A stretch of 47,228 nt of DNA, from contig JAHBWH010000051.1 of assembly GCA_019637115.1 (NCBI GenBank), positions 1 through 47,228 of the forward strand. The letters are read 5' to 3'. Under the pieces are notes generated by a model. It made no database searches. It was not told the origin of the DNA and saw only the letters and a program-made list of their open reading frames with translations. Positions 663-43,430 of this stretch are shown here, in pieces (the stretch's first letter is position 1; each line of letters opens with the position of its first letter). Source of the stretch: Myxococcales bacterium (GTDB lineage Bacteria; Myxococcota_A; Polyangia; Polyangiales; Houyiibacteriaceae). Both the position numbers and the translations under genes were made by a program.

Positions 663-3600
663 TCAAGGGAGCGCCACCATTTGCGCGCTCGCGGCGCCCT
701 CGATGATGCTGCGGGCGGCGGGGAGGTGCTTGGCCTCGGCCCAGGCGTTGCGCAGGATCTCTGCGGCTTCCTCGGTCCGGCCGAGCCCGTGGAGGATGCG
801 CGCGAGCTCCCCGGCCGCCGCCGCGTGGCCAGGGTTTGCCCGGACGGCTCGGCGGTAGTGCATCATCGCGAGCCCTCCGTTGTGGCCGTTCTTCGCCGTC
901 TCGGCCTCACGCGTCTCTCGCGCCGCGATCCCCCGCAAGGTCAACCCGCGGCGCTCCATGAGCCGGAACGCCTCGGCCGGTCGGCCGAGCGCCAGCGCGC
1001 ACTCGGCCGCGAGCTCGCCGACCGGAGCCGTGTCGAGCGCCGCCTCGGTGGCGGCCTCGAGCAGGGCGGCGCAGTCGGCCGCGGCGTAGGCGCCCGCGAC
1101 CCCGAGCGCGGCGGGGTGGACGGTGTCGCCGATCGACTCGGCGAGCGCCACGGCCTGGGCCGCCCGCTGGCGATCCCGCAGGGCGAGCGCCGCCTCGAGG
1201 AAGGGCTCGGCGCGGAGGGGGCGGGCGCGATCGGGCGTGTCCAGGCTGGCGAAGAGGTCGGCGAAGTGTCCCTCGGCGTGACGCAGGCGGTCGGCGCGAT
1301 CGGCTGCGCGGGTGTCGGCGCGCGCGCGATCGAAGGCGCGCAGCGCGGCGCCGACGTCGCCGCGCGCCTCCGCCAGCGCGCCGCGGACGAGGTCGAGCTC
1401 GAGGGGCGGCAGGCCGCTCCCGTCGAGGCTCGCCTCGACCCGCTCGAGCGCCGGGAGGCGCAGGCGCGCGTGCTCGATGCGCCGCAGGAAGACCTCGACG
1501 CGGAGGTCCGTTGGGACCTGCTGCAGGGCCGCCGCCGAGATCCACGGGATGGACCGCAGCGCGTGGTCGAGCGCTGCCTCGTTCAGTGATTGGTCGTGCG
1601 GGATGCGCGCGAGCTCGATCTCGAGGGTGGGGCGGTCGTCGCGCACGATGGGGGCGCCCTCGGAGAAGATCCGGGAGGCCTCGACGTCGAGCTCGAGCGT
1701 CGCGACGAAGTCGACGTGGTCGTCGAGCGCGAAGGGGCGGAGGAAGGGCTGGAGGCCCTCGCTCGAGACGCGCTCGCCGAAGCGCGCGTCGAGGGCGAGG
1801 GGGCCGTGCCCCGCGACGAGCACGAAGCTCGAGCTCTCGGTCACGAAGGCTTGCACGTTCTCGAAGACCTCGTGCAACGTGGCCACGATGCTGCGCAGGT
1901 GCCGAACGTGGATCCGGAAGAGGTTGGTCCAGAGCGCGAGCACCCCGCCAGGCCGCAGCGCGCGGTCGACCTCTTCGAAGAACTCTCGGGTGTAGAGGGC
2001 CGAGGAGCCCGCGAGCCAAGGGTGCGAGGGCTGGCTGACGACCGCGTCGTAGCTGTCCTCGGGCGCGAGCACGAGCTGCGCGCGCGCGTCGTCGACGATG
2101 AGCCGCACCCGCTCATCGTCGACCGGGAAGGGCTTCTCGCGCGCCTCGTAGAGGATCCTCGCCGCGCGGACCACGGACTCTTCGAGCTCGACGACGTCGA
2201 TCTGCTCCCAGGGGCCGCCGGTCATCACGGCGGCGGAGTGCCCGGCCCCGAGCCCGACGACCATCGCGCGCCCGTGCTCTTCGGCGAAGAGCGTCGAGAG
2301 CGAGCCCAGCAGCGCCAGCTCCTCGCCAAAGCCCGGCTCTCCCGTCAGCGAGATGCCCGACTCCGGGCGGCCGTCGTTGAACAGGCGCAGCGAGCCGCCG
2401 CGCTCGAGGATGGTCACGGTGGTGTTCCGGCCCTCCTCGAGGAACTTCACGTTCTGTCGGTAGTCCTCGCTCGGGCCGTTGATGAGGGCGCGCCCGGTGT
2501 CGTACCAGGCGTCGAGGAGGTAAGGCACGTGGAGGCTCGGCTGCGCCGAGAGGAGCGCCGCGCCGACCATGAGGGGCGCGGTGATCGCGAGCACCTTCGG
2601 GACGAGGCCTCGGACCACGCTGCGGAAGGCGATCGCGCTCGCGATCAGGTGCACGAAGATCACCACGAAGATCGCCGCCTCGATGCCGAGGAGCGGCACG
2701 AGCAAGAAGCCCGCGAGGAGGGAGCCGACGAGGCCGCCGAGCGTGTTCGTAGCGAGCACGCGCCCGGAGTGCTTCGCGGCTTCTTCCGCCGAGCCGCCCG
2801 CGATGCGCCACGCCAGGGGCACCGAGGTGCCGAGCACGAGCGCGAGCGGCAGAAGGAGCACCGCGCTCATCACCAGCACGACCCACGCCTCGTGCGGGAC
2901 CACCTGGTAGCGCTCCTGCAGGAGCATCGACAGGCGCGGCATCTGCGCGCCGACCAGCATGGCGAAGGCGCTGAGCAGCGCGAGCATGAGCTGGGTGACG
3001 CCGAAGAGCGTGCGCGGGTCGCGCCCCTTCGACATCAGGCGCTCGGCGACGAGCGAGCCGATCGCGATGCCGAGGAGGAAGTTGACGAGCATCGCCGCGA
3101 AGGCCTGGGTCGTCCCCTGGACGACCATGCGCAGCACGCGGGTCCAGAGGACCTCGCTCGCGAGCGAGGCGAAACCTGCGACCGCGGCGAGCACCATCGC
3201 GAGGCGCGCCGCGTTCGGGAGCCGGTCCGCGCTGGGGGGCGCCGCAGCTTCTGGGGTCGCGGTGGCTTGCAGCTCCGGGGCCGGCGCGGGCGCTTCGGTC
3301 GGCGCGGGCGCCTCGGCCGGGCGGCGGCTCCAGAAGGCGAGGATCACGACGGCGGCCCCGAAGCTCGCGAGCGCGGCGATGATGACGCTGGCCCGGGTGC
3401 CGAAGGTGGGCACGAGGTAGAGCCCCGTGAGGCCCGCGCCGGCCACCGCGCCGAGGGTGTTGGTCGCGTAGAGCCAGGTCGCGCTGGAGCTCCAGTGCAG
3501 GCCGTGGCGGGTCGCGGCGCGGATCAGGATGGGCAGCGTGGCGCCCATCAGGAGCGTCGGCGGCAAGAGGATGACCATCGCGAGGGCGAAGCGCAGCGCG

Positions 3601-3935
3601 GTCAGCGCGCCGAAGCCGAGGCCCGCGCCGATGCTCCCGTAGAGCGCGTGCAGGTTCGGGATCAGCAGCAGGGAGAGGAGCGCCCAGAGCCCGATGAGCA
3701 CCTCGAGCACACCGTAGACCAGCGCAGGGCGCTGGGTCCGGGAGGCGTAACGCCCGCCGAGCGCCGAGCCGAGGCCGAGGCCGAGGAAGAAGGTCCCGAG
3801 GACCGTGGCGATGGCGAGGTCGCTGACCCCGAAGACGCGCTGGAGCATGCGGCCCCACGTCGTCTGGTAGACGAGCGCGGCGGAGCCGGAGAGGAAGAGC
3901 GCGACGTAGAGGCTGGCGAGGCGGATGCGTTGCAA
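663..3935 (-). CDS. Membrane-embedded spermidine-synthase-like protein with C-terminal TPR-like region
   Basis: A protein of about 1090 residues in three parts. The first 520 residues hold many hydrophobic segments in two blocks separated by a Pro/Ala/Glu-rich loop, as in fused MFS/spermidine-synthase proteins. Residues about 555-700 are a Rossmann methyltransferase-type fold, with GLGAGHS (SAM-binding glycine loop), VVELEES (acidic ribose contact) and VSQPSHPW. True spermidine synthases have catalytic Asp residues in that last position, so aminopropyl transfer is doubtful. The remaining part is helical, Ala/Arg-rich and TPR-like. The reading frame extends upstream to 4121, but those residues are Arg/Ala-rich and unlike a transporter N-terminus. 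I prefer the TTG at 3935, just before the first membrane segment, although no strong ribosome-binding site marks it. The 246-base gap to the upstream activator gene holds three irregularly spaced copies of CTCGCGCCGCG (about 4077, 4121 and 4138). Function is unknown; the family assignment is fairly sure. Confidence 0.82.
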   Translation of the reverse strand: MQRIRLASLYVALFLSGSAALVYQTTWGRMLQRVFGVSDLAIATVLGTFFLGLGLGSALGGRYASRTQRPALVYGVLEVLIGLWALLSLLLIPNLHALYGSIGAGLGFGALTALRFALAMVILLPPTLLMGATLPILIRAATRHGLHWSSSATWLYATNTLGAVAGAGLTGLYLVPTFGTRASVIIAALASFGAAVVILAFWSRRPAEAPAPTEAPAPAPELQATATPEAAAPPSADRLPNAARLAMVLAAVAGFASLASEVLWTRVLRMVVQGTTQAFAAMLVNFLLGIAIGSLVAERLMSKGRDPRTLFGVTQLMLALLSAFAMLVGAQMPRLSMLLQERYQVVPHEAWVVLVMSAVLLLPLALVLGTSVPLAWRIAGGSAEEAAKHSGRVLATNTLGGLVGSLLAGFLLVPLLGIEAAIFVVIFVHLIASAIAFRSVVRGLVPKVLAITAPLMVGAALLSAQPSLHVPYLLDAWYDTGRALINGPSEDYRQNVKFLEEGRNTTVTILERGGSLRLFNDGRPESGISLTGEPGFGEELALLGSLSTLFAEEHGRAMVVGLGAGHSAAVMTGGPWEQIDVVELEESVVRAARILYEAREKPFPVDDERVRLIVDDARAQLVLAPEDSYDAVVSQPSHPWLAGSSALYTREFFEEVDRALRPGGVLALWTNLFRIHVRHLRSIVATLHEVFENVQAFVTESSSFVLVAGHGPLALDARFGERVSSEGLQPFLRPFALDDHVDFVATLELDVEASRIFSEGAPIVRDDRPTLEIELARIPHDQSLNEAALDHALRSIPWISAAALQQVPTDLRVEVFLRRIEHARLRLPALERVEASLDGSGLPPLELDLVRGALAEARGDVGAALRAFDRARADTRAADRADRLRHAEGHFADLFASLDTPDRARPLRAEPFLEAALALRDRQRAAQAVALAESIGDTVHPAALGVAGAYAAADCAALLEAATEAALDTAPVGELAAECALALGRPAEAFRLMERRGLTLRGIAARETREAETAKNGHNGGLAMMHYRRAVRANPGHAAAAGELARILHGLGRTEEAAEILRNAWAEAKHLPAARSIIEGAASAQMVALP

Positions 3936-4181
3936 AGCGGCGCTACCGTCGTCAACCGCCTGCCCCGCGTCAAGCCGCGCGGGTCCCGTCACGGGCGTGG
4001 CGCAGGTCGCGCTGGTCGACCGCCGCGCCAGGCTCCGGCTCACACGGCGCCAATCTGCTGAGTCTCCTGGCGAAGCCTCGCGCCGCGCCGGGCCCACACG
4101 AGAGCCCGCGCGGCGCCCCACTCGCGCCGCGAAGGGCTCGCGCCGCGCCTTTTTGACGGCCGCCTCGAGCTGCGCTGCGGC

Positions 4182-5765
4182 TCACGAGGAGCGGTCGTCG
4201 TTCGGCTCGTCGGTCGTCCCGCCCACGCGCGCAGCGGAGGAGCCCACGTAGGACCGCGCGCGCCGGATCCGGTCGCGCACGGTCGAGCGCGGGAGCCCCA
4301 GCGCGCGCGCGGCGGCCGAGACGTTCCCGTAGTGCGCGTGGACGACGCGCATCACCACGTCCGGCTCGTGCTCGACCAGCGCTCCACGAGACCGCAGGAT
4401 CGCCGCGCGGATGTCCTCCTTCGAGATTGTGCGGCACGGAGAGAGCGCCGCCGCGACCCAGACCACGTTCCGCAGCTCGCGGACGTTGCCTTGCCAGGGC
4501 TGCTGCCGCAGCAGGTCGATCGCATCGGGCTCGAGGTCGCGGGCGCCGACGTCGTCCAGGAGCTCGCGGACGAAGTGTCGGGCGAGGGGCTCGACGTCCT
4601 CCGGTCGCTCGCGCAGCGGCGGGACGGTGATGGCGAGCTGGTGGATTCGGTAGAAGAGATCCTCGCGGAACCGGCCTTCCTCGACCGCCAGCCGCAGATC
4701 CCGGTGGGTCGCGCAGACGAGTCGTACTCGGACGCGGCGGGACTCCTCGCCGCCCACCCGGCGGACCTCCCACGTCTCCAGGACCCGCAAGAGCCGAGCC
4801 TGCAGCGCGAGCGGGAGCTCGCCGATCTCGTCGAGGAAGAGGGTGCCGCCGTCGGCCTGCTCGAAGACGCCGCGGTGGGTCTGGTTCGCGCTGGTGAACG
4901 CGCCGCGCTCGTGACCGAAGAGCTCGCTCTCGATGGTCCCTTCGGGGAGCCCGCCCGCGTTCAACGCGACGAAGGGCCCGTCCGCCGCGCGGCCCCGTGC
5001 GTGGAGCGAGCGCGCGATCCCCTCCTTGCCGACGCCGCTCTCTCCGTAGATCACGATCGGCAGCGAGCAGCGCGCCATGCGCTCGACCTCCGAGAGGACC
5101 GCGAGCATGGCGGGCGACGCGGCCACCATCCCACCGACGCGCGCGTCGCCCGCGTCGCCGCGGGGGACGATGCGGACGTCGGTGCGCCCGATCCGGAACG
5201 TCGCGCCGGGGGCGAGCTCGATGAGCGCGACCCGCTGCCCGTCCACCCAGCAGCCGTTCCGTGAGCCGAGGTCTCGCAAGACGACGCCGCCCCGGGTCGG
5301 CTCGAGCCGGCAGTGCCGCTGACTGACATGGCGATCGGTGATCGTGACGTCGACGTCGCGCGCACTGCCGAGCACCAGCGAGCGGCCGTCGAGCGCGATG
5401 CACCGCAGGTCGGGGCCGGCGCCGATGAGGAGGCTGAGCGCGACCTCCACGGGTTGCATCGTCATCGGCTCGGTCCGGCCCGACGTCCGCAGCGGCGGCG
5501 CCTCGGTCCGCACACGCACCAAGGTGTGGTGGCGACCGAGCGTCAGCAGCTCCCCGAGCGGCAGCGGCATCGGCGGGTGCCCGTCGAGGAAGTCCACCGC
5601 GGGCTCGCCTTCGTGCCGCACGATTCGGCAGAGCCGATCGGGGACCGAGGCGTCGTGGACGACGATGTCGGACGTCGGGCTCTTGCCGACCTCGAGCGGG
5701 GCGGTCTCCACCACGAACTCTCGGAGGGGCTCGCCACGGAAGCGGAGGATGAGGGCGTCGTACAT
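4182..5765 (-). CDS. FHA-domain sigma-54-dependent transcriptional activator
   Basis: A regulator of 527 residues that should open sigma-54 RNA polymerase promoters. Residues about 120-180 are an FHA phosphothreonine-binding domain (VLGSARD, HVSQRHC, DLGSRNG), preceded by a possible degenerate FHA-like first 100 residues. The AAA+ domain follows: Walker A GESGVGKE (about 240), the sigma-54 contact loop reading GAFTSA rather than GAFTGA (about 288), Walker B TLFLDEIGE (about 308), and the NVREL sensor region. A Fis-type helix-turn-helix closes the protein (NVSAAARALGLPRSTV). The ATG at 5765 is preferred over an in-frame start at 5954 because the extra residues come from GC-rich repeat DNA. FHA-bearing activators are typical of myxobacteria, where Ser/Thr kinases feed sigma-54 control. 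The nearest sigma-54-like site I can see is at 12889-12902, but no link is shown. Confidence 0.92.
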   Translation of the reverse strand: MYDALILRFRGEPLREFVVETAPLEVGKSPTSDIVVHDASVPDRLCRIVRHEGEPAVDFLDGHPPMPLPLGELLTLGRHHTLVRVRTEAPPLRTSGRTEPMTMQPVEVALSLLIGAGPDLRCIALDGRSLVLGSARDVDVTITDRHVSQRHCRLEPTRGGVVLRDLGSRNGCWVDGQRVALIELAPGATFRIGRTDVRIVPRGDAGDARVGGMVAASPAMLAVLSEVERMARCSLPIVIYGESGVGKEGIARSLHARGRAADGPFVALNAGGLPEGTIESELFGHERGAFTSANQTHRGVFEQADGGTLFLDEIGELPLALQARLLRVLETWEVRRVGGEESRRVRVRLVCATHRDLRLAVEEGRFREDLFYRIHQLAITVPPLRERPEDVEPLARHFVRELLDDVGARDLEPDAIDLLRQQPWQGNVRELRNVVWVAAALSPCRTISKEDIRAAILRSRGALVEHEPDVVMRVVHAHYGNVSAAARALGLPRSTVRDRIRRARSYVGSSAARVGGTTDEPNDDRSS

Positions 5766-5868
5766 GGTGCTGGCCTTCTCGGAGCCGACGCCGTGCGGTT
5801 GCGTGCAAAATGCATCGATCGCGACACCGCGCGAGCGTCCCTCCAGGTTCGGGGGCTTGGCCTCGACG

Positions 5869-5934
5869 GCTCGACGTGGGCTCGACGCGGGCTCGACGCG
5901 GGCTCCACGCGGGCTCCACGCGGGCTCCACGCGC
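5869..5934. repeat. Tandem 11-bp repeat, six copies, between divergent genes
   Basis: Six head-to-tail copies of an 11-base unit. Three read GCTCGACG(T/C)GG and three read GCTCCACGCG(G/C). They end 40 bases before the start of the glycogen-synthase-like gene and lie 104 bases from the activator's ATG. The period is close to one helical turn. No protein reading is plausible. Confidence 0.9.
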
Positions 5935-5974
5935 GCTTCGCGCCCCTCGCGCAACCTGCTACGGTCCGCGCCGC

Positions 5975-7333
5975 ATGCACGTCTTGTTCGTCACTTCCGA
6001 GGTCGGCCCCTTCTCGGGCCGGAGCACCACCGCCGAGGTCTGCTCGGCTCTGCCGAAGGGGCTCCGGGCCCTCGGACACTCGGTCACCGTCCTCTCTCCG
6101 TTCTATCGCGGCATCGAGCCGGCGGCTCACTCGCTTGCGCGGCGGCTCTCGAAGATCGAGGTGGAGGTCGCGGGCGAGAAGGCCGCGTGCGAGGTCTACA
6201 CGGGTCGCACCGTCGCTGGCGTCGACCTGATCTTCCTCGGTCACGACGAGCTCGTCCGGGAGGTGGAGGATCTCGCGGTCGGCGACGACCTCGACCTCGT
6301 CGCGCGGCGCCACGCGCTCTTCGCGCGGGCGGCCGCCAGGGTGGTCCTCGAAGGCAAGACCCGGTTCGACGTCGTGCAGGGCCACGACCTCGTCGGCGCG
6401 TTGACGCTCGCTCACCTCGCCCAGTCCGAGAGCGCGCTCCCCCGCGTGCTCTGCCTCCACCGCGGGGCGAGCCACCTCCCGCGGTTCGGCCCGGAGCACG
6501 GGGCCGTGCTCGGGATCGACGGCCCGACGCTGGACGTCGGGGTTCGGGCCGCGGCCCGGACCATCGTCGCCTCCGAGAGCTTCGCGGCGTCGCTGCGGAC
6601 ACGCTTCCCGGCCGCGGACGTGGTGGGGGTCCCGAACGGGACCGACGCCTCGGTGTGGAACCCCCTGACCGACCCGCACCTCGCAGCGCGGTTCGACCCG
6701 GTCGACCTCTCGGGCAAGGCCCGGTGCAAAGAGTCGACCCAGCGCGCGCTCGACCTCCCGGTCCGCGCCGACGCTCCGTTGCTCTTCGTCGCCAAGGACG
6801 ACACCGGCGGAGGGACCCTCGCGGGCTTCGAAGCGGTCGCGTCAGAGATCCTCCGCAACGACGTGCAGCTCGTGGTCGAGCTGGGGGACGCGCACGACGC
6901 GCTCTGCGCCAGCCTCGAGTCGCTCCAAGAGCGATTCCCCGATCGCATCCAGGTGCGGCGCGCGTTCGACGAAGGCACGCGGCACCAGCTCTTGGCTGCG
7001 GCGGACCTCGCCCTCGCGGCGCCCGACGAGGCGCCGACCGGGGACGCCGTCATGCGGATGCACCGCTATGGCGCCGTCCCGGTCGTCCGCCGGGTCGGCG
7101 CGCTGGGCGACCTCGTCATCGACTGCGACGCCAAGCTCGCGACCGGGACGGGCTTCGTGTTCGAGGGCAACGACCCCGACGACTTGCTCGGCGGCGTGCG
7201 ACGTGGGCTCGCGGCGTTTCCTCGGGAGGCGTTCGGCGAGCTGCGCTCGCGCGTGATGCGCGTGGACCACAGCTGGGATCGCTCCGCCCGCCTCTACGAG
7301 CGCGCCTACGAGTCGTTGTTCGCGACGGAGTGA
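5975..7333 (+). CDS. Degenerate glycogen/starch-synthase-like (GT5) protein
   Basis: A protein of 452 residues that begins like glycogen synthase (MHVLFVTSEVGPF, then SALPKGL...GHSVTVLSPFYRG) and has the middle features HDLVGAL, VPNGTDASVWNP, DVVQGHD and HYSWDR-like DHSWDRSA near the end. The fold of the ADP-glucose-dependent GT5 family is therefore likely. Two hallmarks are missing. The KxGG ADP-glucose-binding loop expected after EVGPF reads SGRSTTAEV. The acceptor-side segment that normally contains SRFEPCGLTQ reads LAAPDEAPTGDAV, although PVVRRVGALGD follows as in real enzymes. I infer a protein that keeps the fold but probably not the classical reaction; altered specificity is the alternative. 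The ATG at 5975 gives the family N-terminus. The gene is divergent from the sigma-54 activator across a repeat tract. Confidence 0.8.
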   Translation: MHVLFVTSEVGPFSGRSTTAEVCSALPKGLRALGHSVTVLSPFYRGIEPAAHSLARRLSKIEVEVAGEKAACEVYTGRTVAGVDLIFLGHDELVREVEDLAVGDDLDLVARRHALFARAAARVVLEGKTRFDVVQGHDLVGALTLAHLAQSESALPRVLCLHRGASHLPRFGPEHGAVLGIDGPTLDVGVRAAARTIVASESFAASLRTRFPAADVVGVPNGTDASVWNPLTDPHLAARFDPVDLSGKARCKESTQRALDLPVRADAPLLFVAKDDTGGGTLAGFEAVASEILRNDVQLVVELGDAHDALCASLESLQERFPDRIQVRRAFDEGTRHQLLAAADLALAAPDEAPTGDAVMRMHRYGAVPVVRRVGALGDLVIDCDAKLATGTGFVFEGNDPDDLLGGVRRGLAAFPREAFGELRSRVMRVDHSWDRSARLYERAYESLFATE

Positions 7334-11136: not shown

Positions 11137-11281
11137 GGCACCTCTCCTCCAGCGCGTGCCCGCGCCGTCCGCGTGGTATCGCGCCCTGCGCTGGGATTCA
11201 ACGACGAGAAAGCCGAACAGCAGTCCCCTGCCCGTGCCCGTGCCCCTGCCCCTGCCCACATCCACGACCAACGTCGTCCCC

Positions 11282-11469
11282 CTCGTCAGAGCCCCCTCGT
11301 CCGAGCCCCCTCGTCCGAGCCCCCTCGTCCGAGCCCCCTCGTCCGAGCCCCCTCGTCCGAGCCCCCTCGTCCGAGCCCCCTCGTCCGAGCCCCCTCGTCC
11401 GAGCTCCCTCGTCCGAGCTCCCTCGTCCGAGACCGTCGTCCGAGACCGTCGTCCGAGACCGTCGTCCGG
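11282..11469. repeat. Tandem 14-bp repeat (11 copies) changing to a 13-bp repeat (3 copies)
   Basis: From 11282 to about 11435 there are 11 near-identical units of 14 bases (CTCGTCCGAGCCCC type, the first two bases of the core varied in unit 1 and TCC in units 10-11). Three units of 13 bases (ACCGTCGTCCGAG) follow. The 357-base gap 11137-11493 holds nothing else I can recognise apart from a degenerate CCCGTGC/CCCTGCC run near 11220-11260. The tract lies between co-directional minus-strand genes. Confidence 0.95.
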
Positions 11470-21936: not shown

Positions 21937-23586
21937 TCATTTGCGGCTCTTGCGGCGGGACTTCTTCTGCATCTTGGTCTTGGACTTCTTCTTGTCCTTG
22001 TCGATCTTCTTCGGCGCGCGGGCGGCGGCTGCGCCTCCGAAGCCGGGCATGCCGGGCATCCCGCCCATGCCGGGGAAGCCACCGGGGAAGCCTCCTGGCA
22101 TGCCGCCGGGCCCCCCCTCGGCGACCGCCGCCTCGAGCAGCTGCTCCGCGAGCTGCGCCATCATCGGGTTCTGCTCGAGGCCGCCCGTTTTGACCGCGCT
22201 GCGCAGGCGGTTGGCCTGGGCGAGCTGCTTGAAGCCCGGGATCTTCGAGAGCATCCCGGCCTGCTTGCCGATGTCCCCCATCATGTTGCGCATGAAGAGG
22301 AAGCGCTGGAGGAGCTCGGCGACCTCCTTCGCGGTCCGGCCCGAGCCCTTCGCCACGCGCTCCATGCGCTTGGGCTCGTCGCGGAAGAGCGTGATGTTCG
22401 TGCGCTCGGCCTTCGTCATCGACGAGACCAGCGCCTTGGTCCGGATCAGCTCGCGCTCGTCGACCTGGAAGCCCTCCGGCATCGAGTCGGCCATGAAGGG
22501 GAGCTTCTCGAAGAGGTCCTGCAGCGGACCCATCTTCTGGATCATCTCGATCTGCTCGAGGAAGTCGTCGAGCGAGAAGTCCCCTTGGAGCATGCGCTTG
22601 GCGTCGTCCTCCGCCTTGCGCTCGTCGACGACGCCCTCGAAGTCCTTCATCAGGCCGACGACGTCGCCCATCCCGAGGATTCGGCTGGCCATGCCCTCGG
22701 GTCGGAAGACCTCGAGCTTGTCCATCTGCTCGCCGACGCCGACGAACTTCACCGGCGCGCCCGTGACCTCCTTGATGGAGAGCGCGGCGCCGCCGCGTGC
22801 GTCACCGTCGAGCTTGGTGACGACGACGCCCGAGAGCCCGAGCCGGTCGTGGAAGGCCTTGGCCGTCTTGACCGAGTCCTGGCCGATCATCGCGTCGACC
22901 ACGAGGAAGACGTTGTGCGGCTTCGTGTGGTCGCGGATCGTCGCGACCTCGCCCATCAGCTGCTCGTCGATCGCGAGGCGACCGGCGGTGTCGAAGATGA
23001 CCGTGTCCCGCTTGATGGACTTACAGTGCTTGAGGCCCTTGTCGCAGATCTCGACGGGGTCTCCGCCCGGGATCGAGAAGACCGGGACGTCGATCTGCTG
23101 ACCGAGGACCTGGAGCTGCTCGATGGCGCCCGGTCGCGCGACGTCGGCGGCGACGAGGAGCACCTTGCGCCCGTTCTCGCGCTCGAGGAGCCGCGCGAGC
23201 TTCGCCGCGGACGTCGTCTTGCCGGAGCCCTGCAGGCCGACCACCATGACGCCCGTGATGCCGCTCTCGGCGAAGGTCACGGGCGGGCCGTCCCAGGCCA
23301 TCATGGCCTCGAGCTCGTCCTGACAGACCTTCACGAATTGCTCGACGGGGCCGACCTTGATCTTGCGGCCCGCGACGACGACCGCCGAGCTCTGGACGGT
23401 CTGACCGACCGCCTTCTCCTTCACTCGGCCGAGGAAGGTCTTGACGACCGAGAACTCGACGTCGGCCTCGAGCAGGGAGAGGCGGACGTCGCGGAGCGCC
23501 GGATCGATGTTCTCGGCGGTCAGCTCGGTCACGCCTGCGAGGCGGTTCTTGGCGGCTCGAAAGCCTTTTTGCAGTGTTTCGAACAT
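21937..23586 (-). CDS. ffh: Signal recognition particle protein Ffh (SRP54)
   Basis: A GTPase that binds 4.5S RNA and signal peptides, delivering nascent chains to FtsY. It is 549 residues, longer than the usual 440-460. The NG domain has GLQGSGKTT, DVARPGAIEQL, FDTAGRL and TKLDGDARGGAALS. The M domain has FLEQIEMIQKMGPLQDLFEKLP, MTKAERTN, and the RNA-binding GSGRTAKEVAELLQRF. After the M domain comes a Gly/Met/Pro/Phe tail (GGFPGGFPGMGGMPGMPG) and a Lys/Arg-rich end (KKIDKDKKKSK...SRRKSRK). Such basic tails occur in some Ffh proteins, but here they add about 80 residues. ATG 23586 gives the standard MFETLQKGF start. It is divergent from polA across 129 bases. Confidence 0.97.
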   Translation of the reverse strand: MFETLQKGFRAAKNRLAGVTELTAENIDPALRDVRLSLLEADVEFSVVKTFLGRVKEKAVGQTVQSSAVVVAGRKIKVGPVEQFVKVCQDELEAMMAWDGPPVTFAESGITGVMVVGLQGSGKTTSAAKLARLLERENGRKVLLVAADVARPGAIEQLQVLGQQIDVPVFSIPGGDPVEICDKGLKHCKSIKRDTVIFDTAGRLAIDEQLMGEVATIRDHTKPHNVFLVVDAMIGQDSVKTAKAFHDRLGLSGVVVTKLDGDARGGAALSIKEVTGAPVKFVGVGEQMDKLEVFRPEGMASRILGMGDVVGLMKDFEGVVDERKAEDDAKRMLQGDFSLDDFLEQIEMIQKMGPLQDLFEKLPFMADSMPEGFQVDERELIRTKALVSSMTKAERTNITLFRDEPKRMERVAKGSGRTAKEVAELLQRFLFMRNMMGDIGKQAGMLSKIPGFKQLAQANRLRSAVKTGGLEQNPMMAQLAEQLLEAAVAEGGPGGMPGGFPGGFPGMGGMPGMPGFGGAAAARAPKKIDKDKKKSKTKMQKKSRRKSRK

Positions 23587-23605
23587 GGGGCTCTTCGGGA
23601 AAGGC

Positions 23606-23635
23606 GGCGTAGCACGCGCGTCCTTCGTTCGGCAA
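23606..23635 (-). promoter_or_regulatory. Candidate promoter for ffh
   Basis: On the reverse strand TTGCCG (23635-23630), 18 bases, TACGCC (23611-23606). Plausible but with a weak -10 box; it would give a short leader before ATG 23586. Confidence 0.35.
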
Positions 23636-23715
23636 CCGCGGCCCCGGCGGCGCGCGCGGCCGCGGCGGCCTGGCGGCTTGCCTCGGGCGCTGCCATTGGC
23701 GATGGTCGCGCCCGC

Positions 23716-26478
23716 ATGGCCGAGAGCACTCCCGCCGCGACGCTTCCGCCCCCGGGTGATCCCGACACCCTCTACGTGGTCGACATCAGCGGCTACGTCT
23801 TCCGCGCCTACCACGCGCTCCCGCCCATGAGCTCGAGCCGCGGCGAGCCCACGCACGCGGTGCGCGGGGTGACGAGCATGATGCTGAAGCTCCTCGAGGA
23901 GCGGCAACCGAAGCAGCTCTGCATCGCGCGCGACAGCCGCGCCTCGTGGCGCAAGGAGCGCTACCCCGCTTACAAGGCGAACCGCCCCGAGGCCCCGCCC
24001 GATCTCGTCCAGCAGATCCGGCGCGTCGGCGAGGTCCTCGCGGCGTTTCGCTTCCCGCAGCTCGGTGCCACGGGGTACGAGGCCGACGACGTCATCGCGT
24101 CCGTGGTCCACTGGGCACGGGCCGCGGGCAAGAAGGTCGTCATCGTCAGCGCCGACAAGGATCTCCTGCAGCTCGTCGGCGACGGCGTGGTGATGCTCGA
24201 CACGATGCGCGACCGGGTCTTCGGGCCCGCCGAGACCCTCGAGAAGTTCGGGGTGCCCCCGGCGCTCGTGCGGGACCTGCTCGCGCTCACGGGCGACAGC
24301 TCCGACAACGTGCCCGGTGTGCCGAGCGTGGGGCCGAAGACCGCGGCCAAGCTCCTCCTCGAGCACGGCGACCTCGACGGGCTCTATGCCCACCTCGACC
24401 AGGTGAAGGGGAAGGTGAAGGAGAAGCTCGCGGAGCACCGCGAGGCTGCGTATCTCTCGCGCGAGCTCGTCACCTTGGAGCAGGGCCTCGTGCGCTTCGC
24501 GACCGACGGCCAAGGGGCGACGGATGTCACCGAGACGCCGAGCGGGCCCGAGCGGGCGATCGACGAGCTCGACCTGCACGTCGACGGCGGGGACGCTCAC
24601 GCGCTCCGCGCGCTCTTCACCGAGCTCGAGTTCACGAGGCTGCTCACGCAGCTCGAGACGGCGCCGCAGGTCGAGGGCAGGGTGGAGGTGGTGCTCGAGC
24701 GGGAGGTGCTCGAGCGCTACGCCGCGGCGATCCGCGACGCGGGGGAGCTCGCCATCCGCGGCGTGCTGGCGGGCGACGACGCGCTGCGCGACGATCTCGT
24801 CGGGGTGGCCCTCGCCTGGGTGGAGGGCCTGAGCCTCTACGTCCCCTTCGCCCATCGCTACATCGGCGCGCCGGCCCAGATGGGCAAAGAGGCGGCCCTC
24901 GAGGTCCTCCGGCCGCTGCTCGAGAACTCGCTCTTTCCGAAGCTCGCCGCGGACCTCAAGCGCGAGGACCTGATCTTCGCGCGCGAGGGCGTGCGTTTCC
25001 GCGGAGGGCGCTTCGACGTCGCCATCGCGAGCTATCTCTATGACCCCGGGCGCCACGCGCACGGCCTCGTCGAGGTCGCCCGGGCGGAGCTCGACGCGGA
25101 GCTGCCGTCGCTCGAGCCGCTGCTCAAGCCCAAGCGCGGGGCGCGCCGCGCGGTGGACGAGCTCGAGGTCGAGGCGGTGGCCGAGGTGGTCGGCGCGGAG
25201 GCCGACTACGTCGCGCGGCTCGCGCACCTGCTCGGGCCGCGGATGGACCAGGGCGACTTCCGCGCGCTCTACCACGCGCTCGAGCTGCCGCTCTCACGGG
25301 TGCTCGCGGACATGGAGCGCGTCGGCGTGCGGGTGGACACCTCGCTCCTCGCCCAGATGAGCCGGGACGCGGAGAAGGATCTGACGCGGCTCGAGGCGAA
25401 GGCGGTCGAGATCGTCGGTCACGAGCTCAACCTCGGATCGCCGAAGCAGCTCGAGGCGGTGCTCTTCGACGAGCTCGGCCTGCGCGTCGTCAAGCGCACG
25501 AAGACGGGCCGCAGCACCGACGCGAGCGTGCTCGAGGAGCTGGCGTCCGAGCACCCGCTGCCGGACGTGATCCTCGAGCACCGGATGATCTCGAAGCTCA
25601 AGGGGACGTACCTCGACGCGCTCCCTGCCGCGGTGCACCCGGCCACGGGGAGGGTGCACACCCGCTACAACCAATACGTCGCGGCGACGGGGCGCCTGAG
25701 CTCATCGGATCCGAACCTGCAGAACATCCCGATCCGCACCGACCTCGGCCGGCGGATCCGCGACGCCTTCGTGCCGGCCGACGGCATGACGCTCCTGAGC
25801 GCCGACTACTCGCAGATCGAGCTCCGGGTGCTGGCGCACCTGAGCCGAGACCCCGAGCTGGTGGACGCCTACACGCGGGGCGAGGACGTCCACGTGCGGA
25901 CCGCGACGGCGCTCTTCGACGTGAAGCCCGAAGAGGTCACGCGCGAGATGCGCGGGCAGGCGAAGACGGTGAACTTCGCGGTGATCTACGGCCAGACGCA
26001 GTGGGCGCTCGCGCAGAACCTGCGGATCACGAAGACGGAGGCCAAGCGCTACATCGACGCCTTCTTCGAGCGCTACCGCGGCATCGCGGCCTTCATGGAG
26101 GACGTGGTCGAGCAGGCGCGGACGACGGGGTACGTCACGACCCTGCTCGGGCGACGTCGGGCGGTCGCGGACATCCGCAGCCGCAACCCGGCGCTGCGCC
26201 ACGCGGCCGAGCGGATCGCGCAGAACACGCCGATTCAGGGCACGGCGGCGGACATCATCAAGGTGGCGATGGTGCGGATCCACGAGGCGCTGCGGCGAGG
26301 CCGGTTTGGCGCGCGGATGATCCTGACGGTGCACGACGAGCTGGTGCTCGAGGTCCCGCACGCGGAGCAGGACGCGGTCGGCGCGTTGGTGCGCGCGGAG
26401 ATGGAGGGGGCGATCGCCCTCGACGTGCCGCTCGTGGCCGAGGTGGGCTTCGGCGCTTCGTGGGGCGCGGCGCACTGA
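23716..26478 (+). CDS. polA: DNA polymerase I
   Basis: A 920-residue enzyme for Okazaki-fragment processing and repair. Residues 1-300 form the 5'-3' nuclease: VVDISGYVFRAYHALPPM, GYEADDVIAS, IVSADKDLLQLV, LLALTGDSSDNVPGV, GPKTAAKLL. The middle 3'-5' exonuclease domain is degenerate: where DTE is expected it reads AIRGVLAGDDAL, and the metal-binding Asp of NLKYD reads DLKRED. The polymerase part is intact: GRLSSSDPNLQNIP, LSADYSQIELRVLAHL (Asp), the O-helix GQAKTVNFAVIYGQT (Arg-Lys-Phe-Tyr set), and TVHDELVLEV (Asp). ATG 23716 gives the family N-terminus; longer forms to 22585 overlap ffh in antisense. No clear promoter was seen in the 129-base divergent gap. Confidence 0.97.
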   Translation: MAESTPAATLPPPGDPDTLYVVDISGYVFRAYHALPPMSSSRGEPTHAVRGVTSMMLKLLEERQPKQLCIARDSRASWRKERYPAYKANRPEAPPDLVQQIRRVGEVLAAFRFPQLGATGYEADDVIASVVHWARAAGKKVVIVSADKDLLQLVGDGVVMLDTMRDRVFGPAETLEKFGVPPALVRDLLALTGDSSDNVPGVPSVGPKTAAKLLLEHGDLDGLYAHLDQVKGKVKEKLAEHREAAYLSRELVTLEQGLVRFATDGQGATDVTETPSGPERAIDELDLHVDGGDAHALRALFTELEFTRLLTQLETAPQVEGRVEVVLEREVLERYAAAIRDAGELAIRGVLAGDDALRDDLVGVALAWVEGLSLYVPFAHRYIGAPAQMGKEAALEVLRPLLENSLFPKLAADLKREDLIFAREGVRFRGGRFDVAIASYLYDPGRHAHGLVEVARAELDAELPSLEPLLKPKRGARRAVDELEVEAVAEVVGAEADYVARLAHLLGPRMDQGDFRALYHALELPLSRVLADMERVGVRVDTSLLAQMSRDAEKDLTRLEAKAVEIVGHELNLGSPKQLEAVLFDELGLRVVKRTKTGRSTDASVLEELASEHPLPDVILEHRMISKLKGTYLDALPAAVHPATGRVHTRYNQYVAATGRLSSSDPNLQNIPIRTDLGRRIRDAFVPADGMTLLSADYSQIELRVLAHLSRDPELVDAYTRGEDVHVRTATALFDVKPEEVTREMRGQAKTVNFAVIYGQTQWALAQNLRITKTEAKRYIDAFFERYRGIAAFMEDVVEQARTTGYVTTLLGRRRAVADIRSRNPALRHAAERIAQNTPIQGTAADIIKVAMVRIHEALRRGRFGARMILTVHDELVLEVPHAEQDAVGALVRAEMEGAIALDVPLVAEVGFGASWGAAH

Positions 26479-39796: not shown

Positions 39797-40843
39797 GTGA
39801 GCCAGGACGTGAGCGACGAGGGCGACGAGGTGCTCGATCCACATGCCGAGCTGCAGGCCCTGATGGCCAGCGCGCGAGCCTTGCTGGACTGGGAGGAGGA
39901 GCTCGGCGGCGTGGGTTTCCCGTCGGTGGAGCTGCTGCCCGCCGCGCAGCGGTTGGACGTGTCGGAGCGACCGCGCGTGTCGGAGCCGCGCGTGTCGGAG
40001 CCGGAGCCGCGCGTGTCGGAGCCGGAGCCGCGTGTGTCGGAGCCGCGTGTGTCGGAGCCGCGCGTGTCGGAGCCGGAGCCGCGCGTGTCTGAGCCGCGCG
40101 TGTCGGAGCCGCCGGTGCAACCACCGAGCGAGGCCGAAGCGTCGACGCGTCCCGCGCCCGCGCCGAACCAAGGCGCGGTGTGGAGCGACCGAGGCGCGCG
40201 GGCCGAGACCGAGCTGGCGGAGCCAGCTTCGTCGCACGCGGTCGACGCGGGGCTCACGGCGGACGAGAGGGTGGGGCGGCTCCAGGTGCTCGCGGAGCGA
40301 GCGGCGTCGTGCACGGCATGTCGACTGCACGAGGGGCGCACGAGGAGCGTCTTCGCCCGCGGGAGCGCGAGCGCCGAGCTCGCCTTCGTCGGCGAAGGGC
40401 CCGGGTATCACGAGGACCAGCAGGGCCTCCCCTTCGTCGGCGACGCGGGCCAGCTGCTCGACAAGATGATCGTCGCGATGGGCTTCGGACGCGACGACGT
40501 CTACATCTGCAACGTGGTCAAGTGCCGGCCGCCCAAGAATCGCACGCCGGAGGCCGACGAGGCGCTGGCCTGCAGCGCGTTCCTCCGCGGCCAGCTCGAG
40601 CTCGTCCGCCCGCGCGTGATCGTCGCGCTCGGGCGATCGGCCTCGGAGGGGCTCGGTGTGACCGAGCCTGGCGCGCGCGGTTGGCGCGGGCGCTGGGGGA
40701 CGTGGGAAGGCGTCCCGGTGATGTCGACCTTCCACCCGGCGTACCTGCTCCGGAGCCCCGAGCAGAAGCGACCCGTGTGGGAGGACCTCCAGGCGGTGGT
40801 CGCGCGGCTCGGCCGGACTCTGCCCGCGAAGCAGCGACGGTGA
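39797..40843 (+). CDS. Family 4 uracil-DNA glycosylase with repetitive N-terminal linker
   Basis: A 348-residue [4Fe-4S] enzyme that removes uracil from DNA. The C-terminal 200 residues are complete: CTACRLHEGRTRSV (two cluster Cys, about 173), ELAFVGEGPGYHEDQQGLPFVGDAGQLLD, NVVKCRPPKNRTPEADE (Cys), LACSAFLRGQLEL (fourth Cys), MSTFHPAYLLRSPE (catalytic His motif). The first 50 residues form a short helix; then about residues 55-105 are tandem RVSEP and RVSEPEP units. Family 4 enzymes are usually near 200-230 residues, so the extension is unusual. GTG 39797 is chosen by position only, without a strong ribosome-binding site. One base separates the stop from the cupin gene. Confidence 0.92.
   Translation: MSQDVSDEGDEVLDPHAELQALMASARALLDWEEELGGVGFPSVELLPAAQRLDVSERPRVSEPRVSEPEPRVSEPEPRVSEPRVSEPRVSEPEPRVSEPRVSEPPVQPPSEAEASTRPAPAPNQGAVWSDRGARAETELAEPASSHAVDAGLTADERVGRLQVLAERAASCTACRLHEGRTRSVFARGSASAELAFVGEGPGYHEDQQGLPFVGDAGQLLDKMIVAMGFGRDDVYICNVVKCRPPKNRTPEADEALACSAFLRGQLELVRPRVIVALGRSASEGLGVTEPGARGWRGRWGTWEGVPVMSTFHPAYLLRSPEQKRPVWEDLQAVVARLGRTLPAKQRR
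39960..40112 (+). repeat. In-frame tandem repeat coding RVSEP/RVSEPEP units
   Basis: Nine VSE-containing units of 15 or 21 bases (GCGTGTCGGAGCC type) lie in frame inside the glycosylase gene. The core GTGTCGGAGCC resembles the intergenic repeats, but both lengths keep the reading frame. Confidence 0.9.
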
Positions 40844-43181: not shown

Positions 43182-43229
43182 CGCGACGGTGTGGCCCCGT
43201 CGCTCGGCCTCGCGACGCACCGCGCTCGC

Positions 43230-43430
43230 GTCGTGCCGGTGGGCTTTGCGCCGCGCTGCGCCGCTCGCGTCGTGCCGGTGGGCTTCGCGCCGCGCTGCGC
43301 CGCTCGCGTCGTGCCGGTTGGCTTCGCGCCGCGCTGCGCCGCTTGGGTCGTTCCGGTTGGCTTCGCGCCGCGCTGCGCCGCTTGGGTCGTGCCGGTGGCC
43401 CTGCCCGCGGCTCGCGTCGATCCGGTGGGC
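43230..43430. repeat. Tandem 39-bp repeat (about 5 copies)
   Basis: Units of 39 bases beginning GTCGTGCCGGTGGGCTTTGC at about 43230, 43269, 43308, 43347 and 43386, degrading toward 43500 (GTGGGCCTCGCGCCC). The period keeps frame in both strands, so long antisense reading frames result. I read it as non-coding: it lies in the 322-base gap between the stop of the tetraheme gene (43504) and rlpA (43181), and no start with a ribosome-binding site precedes it. Confidence 0.85.

Follow-up and report, generated by a model that had tools for sequence, protein, structure and literature searches.

At positions 5975-7333 of the 47,228-nucleotide stretch of myxobacterial DNA analysed here (the window), an open reading frame encodes a protein that resembles a glycogen synthase of the GT5 type but departs from it at the motifs that hold the sugar-nucleotide donor. 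The locus raises the question of whether this protein is a pseudoenzyme or an enzyme with a new sugar-nucleotide specificity, both of which the original prediction had proposed, and of why relatives retain it. Our analyses suggest that it is a GT5 pseudoenzyme, which has probably been maintained for binding or scaffolding rather than for catalysis.

A glycogen synthase fold without its donor site

The gene and the segments at which catalytic residues are missing, hereafter described as disarmed, are as follows.

5975..7333, + strand: disarmed GT5 gene (glycogen-synthase fold), 452 amino acids; open reading frame, profile matches and AlphaFold2 model
6008..6040, + strand: P12-V22 (PFSGRSTTAEV), aligned to the KxGGLADV donor-binding loop, with the Lys and both Gly gone; alignment
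6458..6463, + strand: H162-R163, in place of the strictly conserved His-Asn pair (H161-N162 in E. coli), with the Asn lost; alignment
6794..6817, + strand: loop KDDTGGGT, aligned to R300...K305 (donor phosphate binders), both lost, containing a stretch with pLDDT below 50; alignment and model
7022..7051, + strand: P350-V359 (PDEAPTGDAV), aligned to SRFEPCGLTQ, with Ala353 in place of catalytic Glu377; alignment

The protein matched the Pfam Glyco_transf_5 profile at 2.5e-21, and its best solved-structure match by sequence was barley starch synthase I. An AlphaFold2 model built from 11 sequences had a mean pLDDT of 89.4 and a pTM of 0.87. Its top structural neighbours were the glycogen synthases of E. 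coli (2QZS/3COP) and A. tumefaciens (1RZU), with Z scores of 42-43 and an rmsd of 2.5 over 437-442 residues. Thus, the model and the structure comparison place a GT-B fold of the GT5 type across the whole protein, and like bacterial GlgA it keeps the interdomain linker and the C-terminal motifs. Only at residues 276-280, in the loop that corresponds to Arg300 and Lys305, did the pLDDT of the model fall below 50.

Unlike bacterial GlgA, the protein lacks key residues of the donor site, which we scored by alignment to E. coli GlgA. The E. coli segment K15-T-G-G-L-A-D-V corresponds to G15-R-S-T-T-A-E-V, with Lys15 replaced by Gly15 and Gly17-Gly18 by Ser17-Thr18, so that GRST stands at the position of KxGG. 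Asn162 is replaced by R163, R300 by D275 and K305 by G280. In place of the segment R375-F-E377-P-C-G-L the protein has D351-E-A353-P-T-G-D, with the loss of the catalytic Glu377, changes at which affect the activity of E. coli GlgA. The equivalents of D137 and H161 persist (D138 and H162). Its score against the TIGR02095 glgA profile was 233.7 bits, where the curated cut-off is 328.45; this shortfall is weak evidence alone because an intact paralogue on contig C205 of the same genome also falls below the cut-off.

The profile search and structural modelling that the original prediction had proposed therefore confirmed a GT5 fold around missing donor-site residues. Its readings of the first loop as SGRSTTAEV and of the second segment as DEAPTGDAV were correct, and the losses of Asn162 and of the Arg/Lys pair had escaped it. 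Its description of the SRFEPCGL segment as an acceptor motif was mistaken: in structural work, the Glu, Cys and Gly of EPCGL touch the donor glucose, and the Arg and Lys (E. coli 300 and 305) hold the donor phosphates (PMC6086201). Because the donor site is lost, no glucan synthesis would be expected from the two-domain GT-B fold that remains.

The disarmed state is shared across a clade

Homologues of the protein were widespread: 54 of the 57 relatives gave a match at E 1e-10. Of 289 sampled genomes of the class, 251 were hit at 1e-30 by a family profile, which detects ordinary GT5s as well. In the window's own family (f1), 32 of 33 genomes had a GT5 match at 1e-20 and one of 33 had a match above the cut-off. 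Every f1 orthologue that we checked was disarmed. The original prediction had named intact KxGG in orthologues from close relatives as evidence against a pseudoenzyme; none was found among the f1 orthologues checked, intact homologues of the window copy occurred only in other families, and the pseudoenzyme reading stands. We consider that the losses are not due to chance because the fold match is confident and all of the checked f1 orthologues share them.

We built a tree of 86 rows by a short search, with the main catalytic-motif columns removed. Two short matches of one f6 genome (G037) and duplicates had been removed from the homologue set, and 15 of the 101 rows were left out of the tree: 11 near-copies from f1 genus g2, two f7 near-copies, and the poor rows L118 and L121. 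The window gene belonged to a 33-row clade with an SH-aLRT of 100, drawn from families f1, f3, f4, f9 and f10. This clade was nested among intact myxobacterial GT5s of f5, f12, f16 and f27, and 32 of its rows were scored as disarmed; the other, L072, was left without a group because it has Lys15, although it lacks the other five key residues. Three more disarmed groups lay nearby, in f7 (four rows), f12 (two rows) and f5 (one row). Forcing all 40 disarmed rows together cost 57.8 log units (p-AU 0.0228, for a group that was named after the tree had been seen). Several separate disarmings are favoured by this tree, but are not certain. The window gene probably descends from a second glycogen synthase copy of this myxobacterial order.

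Partial states were also observed: an f10 row keeps Lys305 and Glu377, and an f5 row keeps Glu377. The half-disarmed GT5s in which some catalytic residues are left, L070 (G041, f10), L113 (G055, f5), and L085 and L126 (both f12), form a natural series for the study of how catalysis is lost.

The disarmed protein persists without the glycogen pathway

GlgC was found in 102 of the 154 genomes of the order and in one of the 33 f1 genomes, where it adjoins that genome's one canonical GlgA. None of the 33 f1 genomes contained a GlgE domain, GlgB exceeded its cut-off in six, and a phosphorylase scored more than 1,000 bits in 14, with weaker matches in others. Nine f1 genomes of at least 90% completeness (G004, G005, G009, G010, G013, G015, G018, G024 and G027) keep the disarmed GT5, as confirmed by its motifs (for G005 through the matching record L039). 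In these nine we found neither GlgC nor an intact GT5, and likewise no GlgB match, GlgE domain or strong phosphorylase; they are drafts, in which single absences may be gaps. Weak phosphorylase matches were present in G009, G010, G015 and G018, where some alpha-glucan chemistry may persist. The window's own genome lies outside this group, as it has GlgB, GlgP and the divergent intact GT5 on C205, and lacks GlgC. The f3 genomes carry GlgC and intact GT5s alongside the disarmed copy, so disarming was not a consequence of pathway loss.

These distributions bear on the possibility that the protein works alongside active glycogen enzymes, as their regulator or as a glucan-anchoring partner, in the way that plant STARCH SYNTHASE 5 acts in granule initiation. 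That non-enzymatic starch-synthase-like protein offers a precedent (PMC10801857), and both the enzymes still present in the window's genome and the f3 genomes would provide partners. The nine f1 genomes, however, keep the disarmed protein with none of those enzymes beyond the weak phosphorylase matches in four of them, and we regard a glycogen-linked role as unlikely.

The divergent GT5 on C205 is a separate matter. This second GT5 was seen in the window's genome (G000; L002 and L032) and in G001 and G006 (L101 and L100), on a branch of 1.8 changes per column and with intact KGGGLGD and EPCGLP motifs. G000, G001, G006 and G008 are the f1 genomes with a full GlgB and a strong phosphorylase and without GlgC (GT5 motifs were checked in all except G008). 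From these motifs and this gene content, the C205-type GT5 is perhaps a glycogen synthase that uses a donor other than ADP-glucose.

Losses are centred on substrate contacts

We took 19 ligand-contact positions from a crystal-structure paper (PMC6086201), mapping their numbering to E. coli by motif, and used the 16 that reach 85% conservation or more among 46 intact GT5s. Across 45 disarmed rows, mean retention was 0.17 at these 16 columns versus 0.64 at 58 other equally conserved columns (p = 1.9e-06). For the window protein alone, the values were 0.31 and 0.57 (p = 0.036). R300, K305 and E377 were kept in 0.16, 0.02 and 0.02 of the 45 rows, and the commonest letters at these positions were R (0.16), D (0.24) and A (0.67), none of them a conserved charged substitute. 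In the D137 column of the disarmed rows, Gly was the common replacement (0.82).

An active glycosyltransferase whose catalytic site has been rebuilt for a different donor or acceptor would account for the preserved fold and hinge, for D138 and H162 and for the strong conservation outside the pocket. We nevertheless consider this improbable. A rebuilt sugar-nucleotide site is disfavoured because no charged substitute is conserved at 300, 305 or 377, and the model is least confident in the loop aligned to R300...K305. The proposal of a new sugar-nucleotide specificity in the original prediction is likewise unlikely, as no conserved replacement fills the pocket. Its pseudoenzyme proposal is well supported, by the disarmed state of all checked f1 orthologues, the concentration of losses at substrate contacts and the selection described below.

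The disarmed gene is under purifying selection

We estimated dN/dS by NG86, as YN00 failed for 10 of 16 pairs. The 12 disarmed pairs, two of which came from the groups disarmed separately, gave 0.05-0.38, and four intact control pairs gave 0.13-0.24. The highest value, 0.38, was that of the window gene and its nearest orthologue, from the same-genus genome G001. No stops were found inside the listed matches of relatives, f1 included, and many columns were invariant among sequences that are about 40% identical. The gene is present in almost all relatives and has a low dN/dS, so from these comparisons it evidently has a function. The locus thus presents a lost donor site within a GT5 fold kept by selection, as would be seen in a non-catalytic GT5 of the STARCH SYNTHASE 5 kind. 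A dying gene left over from a lost pathway would fit the pathway loss in f1 and the relatively high value for the window pair, but it is very improbable given the uninterrupted reading frames, a dN/dS well below 1 in every pair and the invariant columns.

A conserved signature shared with intact sister enzymes

Conserved features of the protein are listed here.

6137..6148, + strand: A55-R56-R57-L58, part of a signature common to intact sister GT5s; conservation
6656..6742, + strand: W228-Q256 linker (WNPLTDPHLAARFDPVDLSGKARCKESTQ), strongly conserved in the disarmed clade; conservation
6857..6859, + strand: N295, at 0.97 in the disarmed clade and in none of 46 intact GT5s; conservation

Conservation within the clade, including that of N295, was scored on 35 disarmed and 46 intact rows. 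The signature comprises 14 residues, six of which are arginines: H35, A55, R56, R57, L58, R78, R239, D241, Q256, P262, D383, L388, R426 and R436. Each occurs at a frequency of at least 0.91 in 44 disarmed rows and at least 0.85 in 13 intact sisters, versus at most 0.45 in 33 other intact GT5s. The seven separately disarmed rows retain most of them, with the exceptions of Q256 (0.00), P262 (0.43) and R78 (0.57).

This pattern suggests that the signature marks a second function common to active and dead forms, perhaps a binding surface. Alternatively, these may be no more than inherited packing residues, as conserved columns and dN/dS do not separate a binding role from structural need. The function of the protein is most likely non-catalytic, namely to bind a partner protein or, less likely, a ligand, probably through these 14 residues. 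We tentatively propose, with somewhat less than even confidence, that the sister copy had two jobs: a structural or signalling role under selection, carried by the shared residues, and catalysis, which was discarded about four times and left a stand-alone dead form that outlived the glycogen pathway. On the pseudoenzyme reading as such, we infer that the binding role came first, in a bifunctional enzyme, and that several lineages then gave up catalysis, for which they had a dedicated GlgC-GlgA pair; this pair would later have been lost itself in the window's family.

Precedents and implications

STARCH SYNTHASE 5 of Arabidopsis is the nearest known precedent. It is described in PMC10801857 as a noncanonical, non-enzymatic plastid protein of starch granule initiation that binds MRC. 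Compared by description, it and the window protein are both GT5-derived and thought to be non-catalytic. They differ in that the plant protein acts in the plastid, with starch granules and MRC, whereas the bacterial clade often lacks a glycogen-synthesis pathway. The pseudoglycosyltransferases VldE and ValL are likewise described as glycosyltransferase relatives that have departed from ordinary sugar transfer. Unlike the window protein, whose donor site itself is gone, they are active and make non-glycosidic bonds. A plant branching enzyme (PMC13172542) is a recent example of a glycogen-enzyme fold put to other use. Our literature searches turned up no paper on a bacterial glycogen-synthase pseudoenzyme family, which is not proof of absence, and the word 'pseudoenzyme' does not occur in the first 300,000 characters of a review, published in 2024, on the alpha-glucan enzymes of prokaryotes (PMC11046441).

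If our reading holds, the protein would be a bacterial counterpart of STARCH SYNTHASE 5, and a single order would offer intact, half-disarmed (f10, f12 and f5) and fully disarmed GT5s as a natural series for studying how an enzyme fold comes to serve another purpose. The two-job proposal, if true, would make this a bacterial, repeatedly evolved pseudoenzyme family derived from a central metabolic enzyme. The glycogen capacity of myxobacteria could also be overcalled, as family scans place the disarmed proteins nearest to glycogen synthase.

Genomic neighbourhood

Two features lie immediately upstream of the gene.

4182..5897, - strand: divergent neighbour encoding an FHA / sigma-54 activator / HTH protein with an uncertain start codon, not conserved next to orthologues; domain profiles and neighbourhood comparison
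5868..5937, no strand: 11-bp unit GGCTCSACGCG repeated 6.4 times in tandem, a short way upstream of the GT5 gene; repeat scan

The FHA/sigma-54 neighbour to which the original prediction drew attention is present, but its significance did not hold up: at E 1e-8 it had no match among the open reading frames of 41 neighbourhood loci (L039 and L048-L087), and in G001 a DUF1731 epimerase occupies that place. We therefore rejected a functional link to this regulator, which is probably incidental. The GT5 gene of many relatives in f1, f3 and f9 has a convergent TsaB on one side, with signal peptidase S26 and radical SAM genes after it, and on the other side a divergent DUF1731 epimerase or a different gene. 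G001 keeps TsaB adjoining the GT5, whereas in the window's genome the TsaB-type block is on another contig (C422) without a GT5. This arrangement suggests a relocation of the GT5 gene in the window's lineage, although the locus could instead contain an assembly join. We also rejected a functional meaning for the conserved synteny; these genes are housekeeping-like and lie on the opposite strand or beyond, and they support orthology only and indicate no binding partner.

Promoter and terminator scans returned no hits. Elsewhere in the window, the GGCTCSACGCG unit occurs in only two other forward and three reverse copies. Longer tandem arrays are found at 11278-11468 (14 bp x 13.9, 97% matches), 39958-40112 (36/51 bp) and 43223-43398 (39 bp x 4.5, 94% matches). 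At 21937-25275 (- strand), the SRP54 N, GTPase and signal-peptide-binding domains of a 1112-residue open reading frame begin only near residue 568; the long extension before them may be a genuine additional region or the result of a start misassigned in GC-rich DNA. At 663-4121 (- strand), a 1152-residue open reading frame joins MFS transporter-like, spermine-synthase-like and TPR parts.
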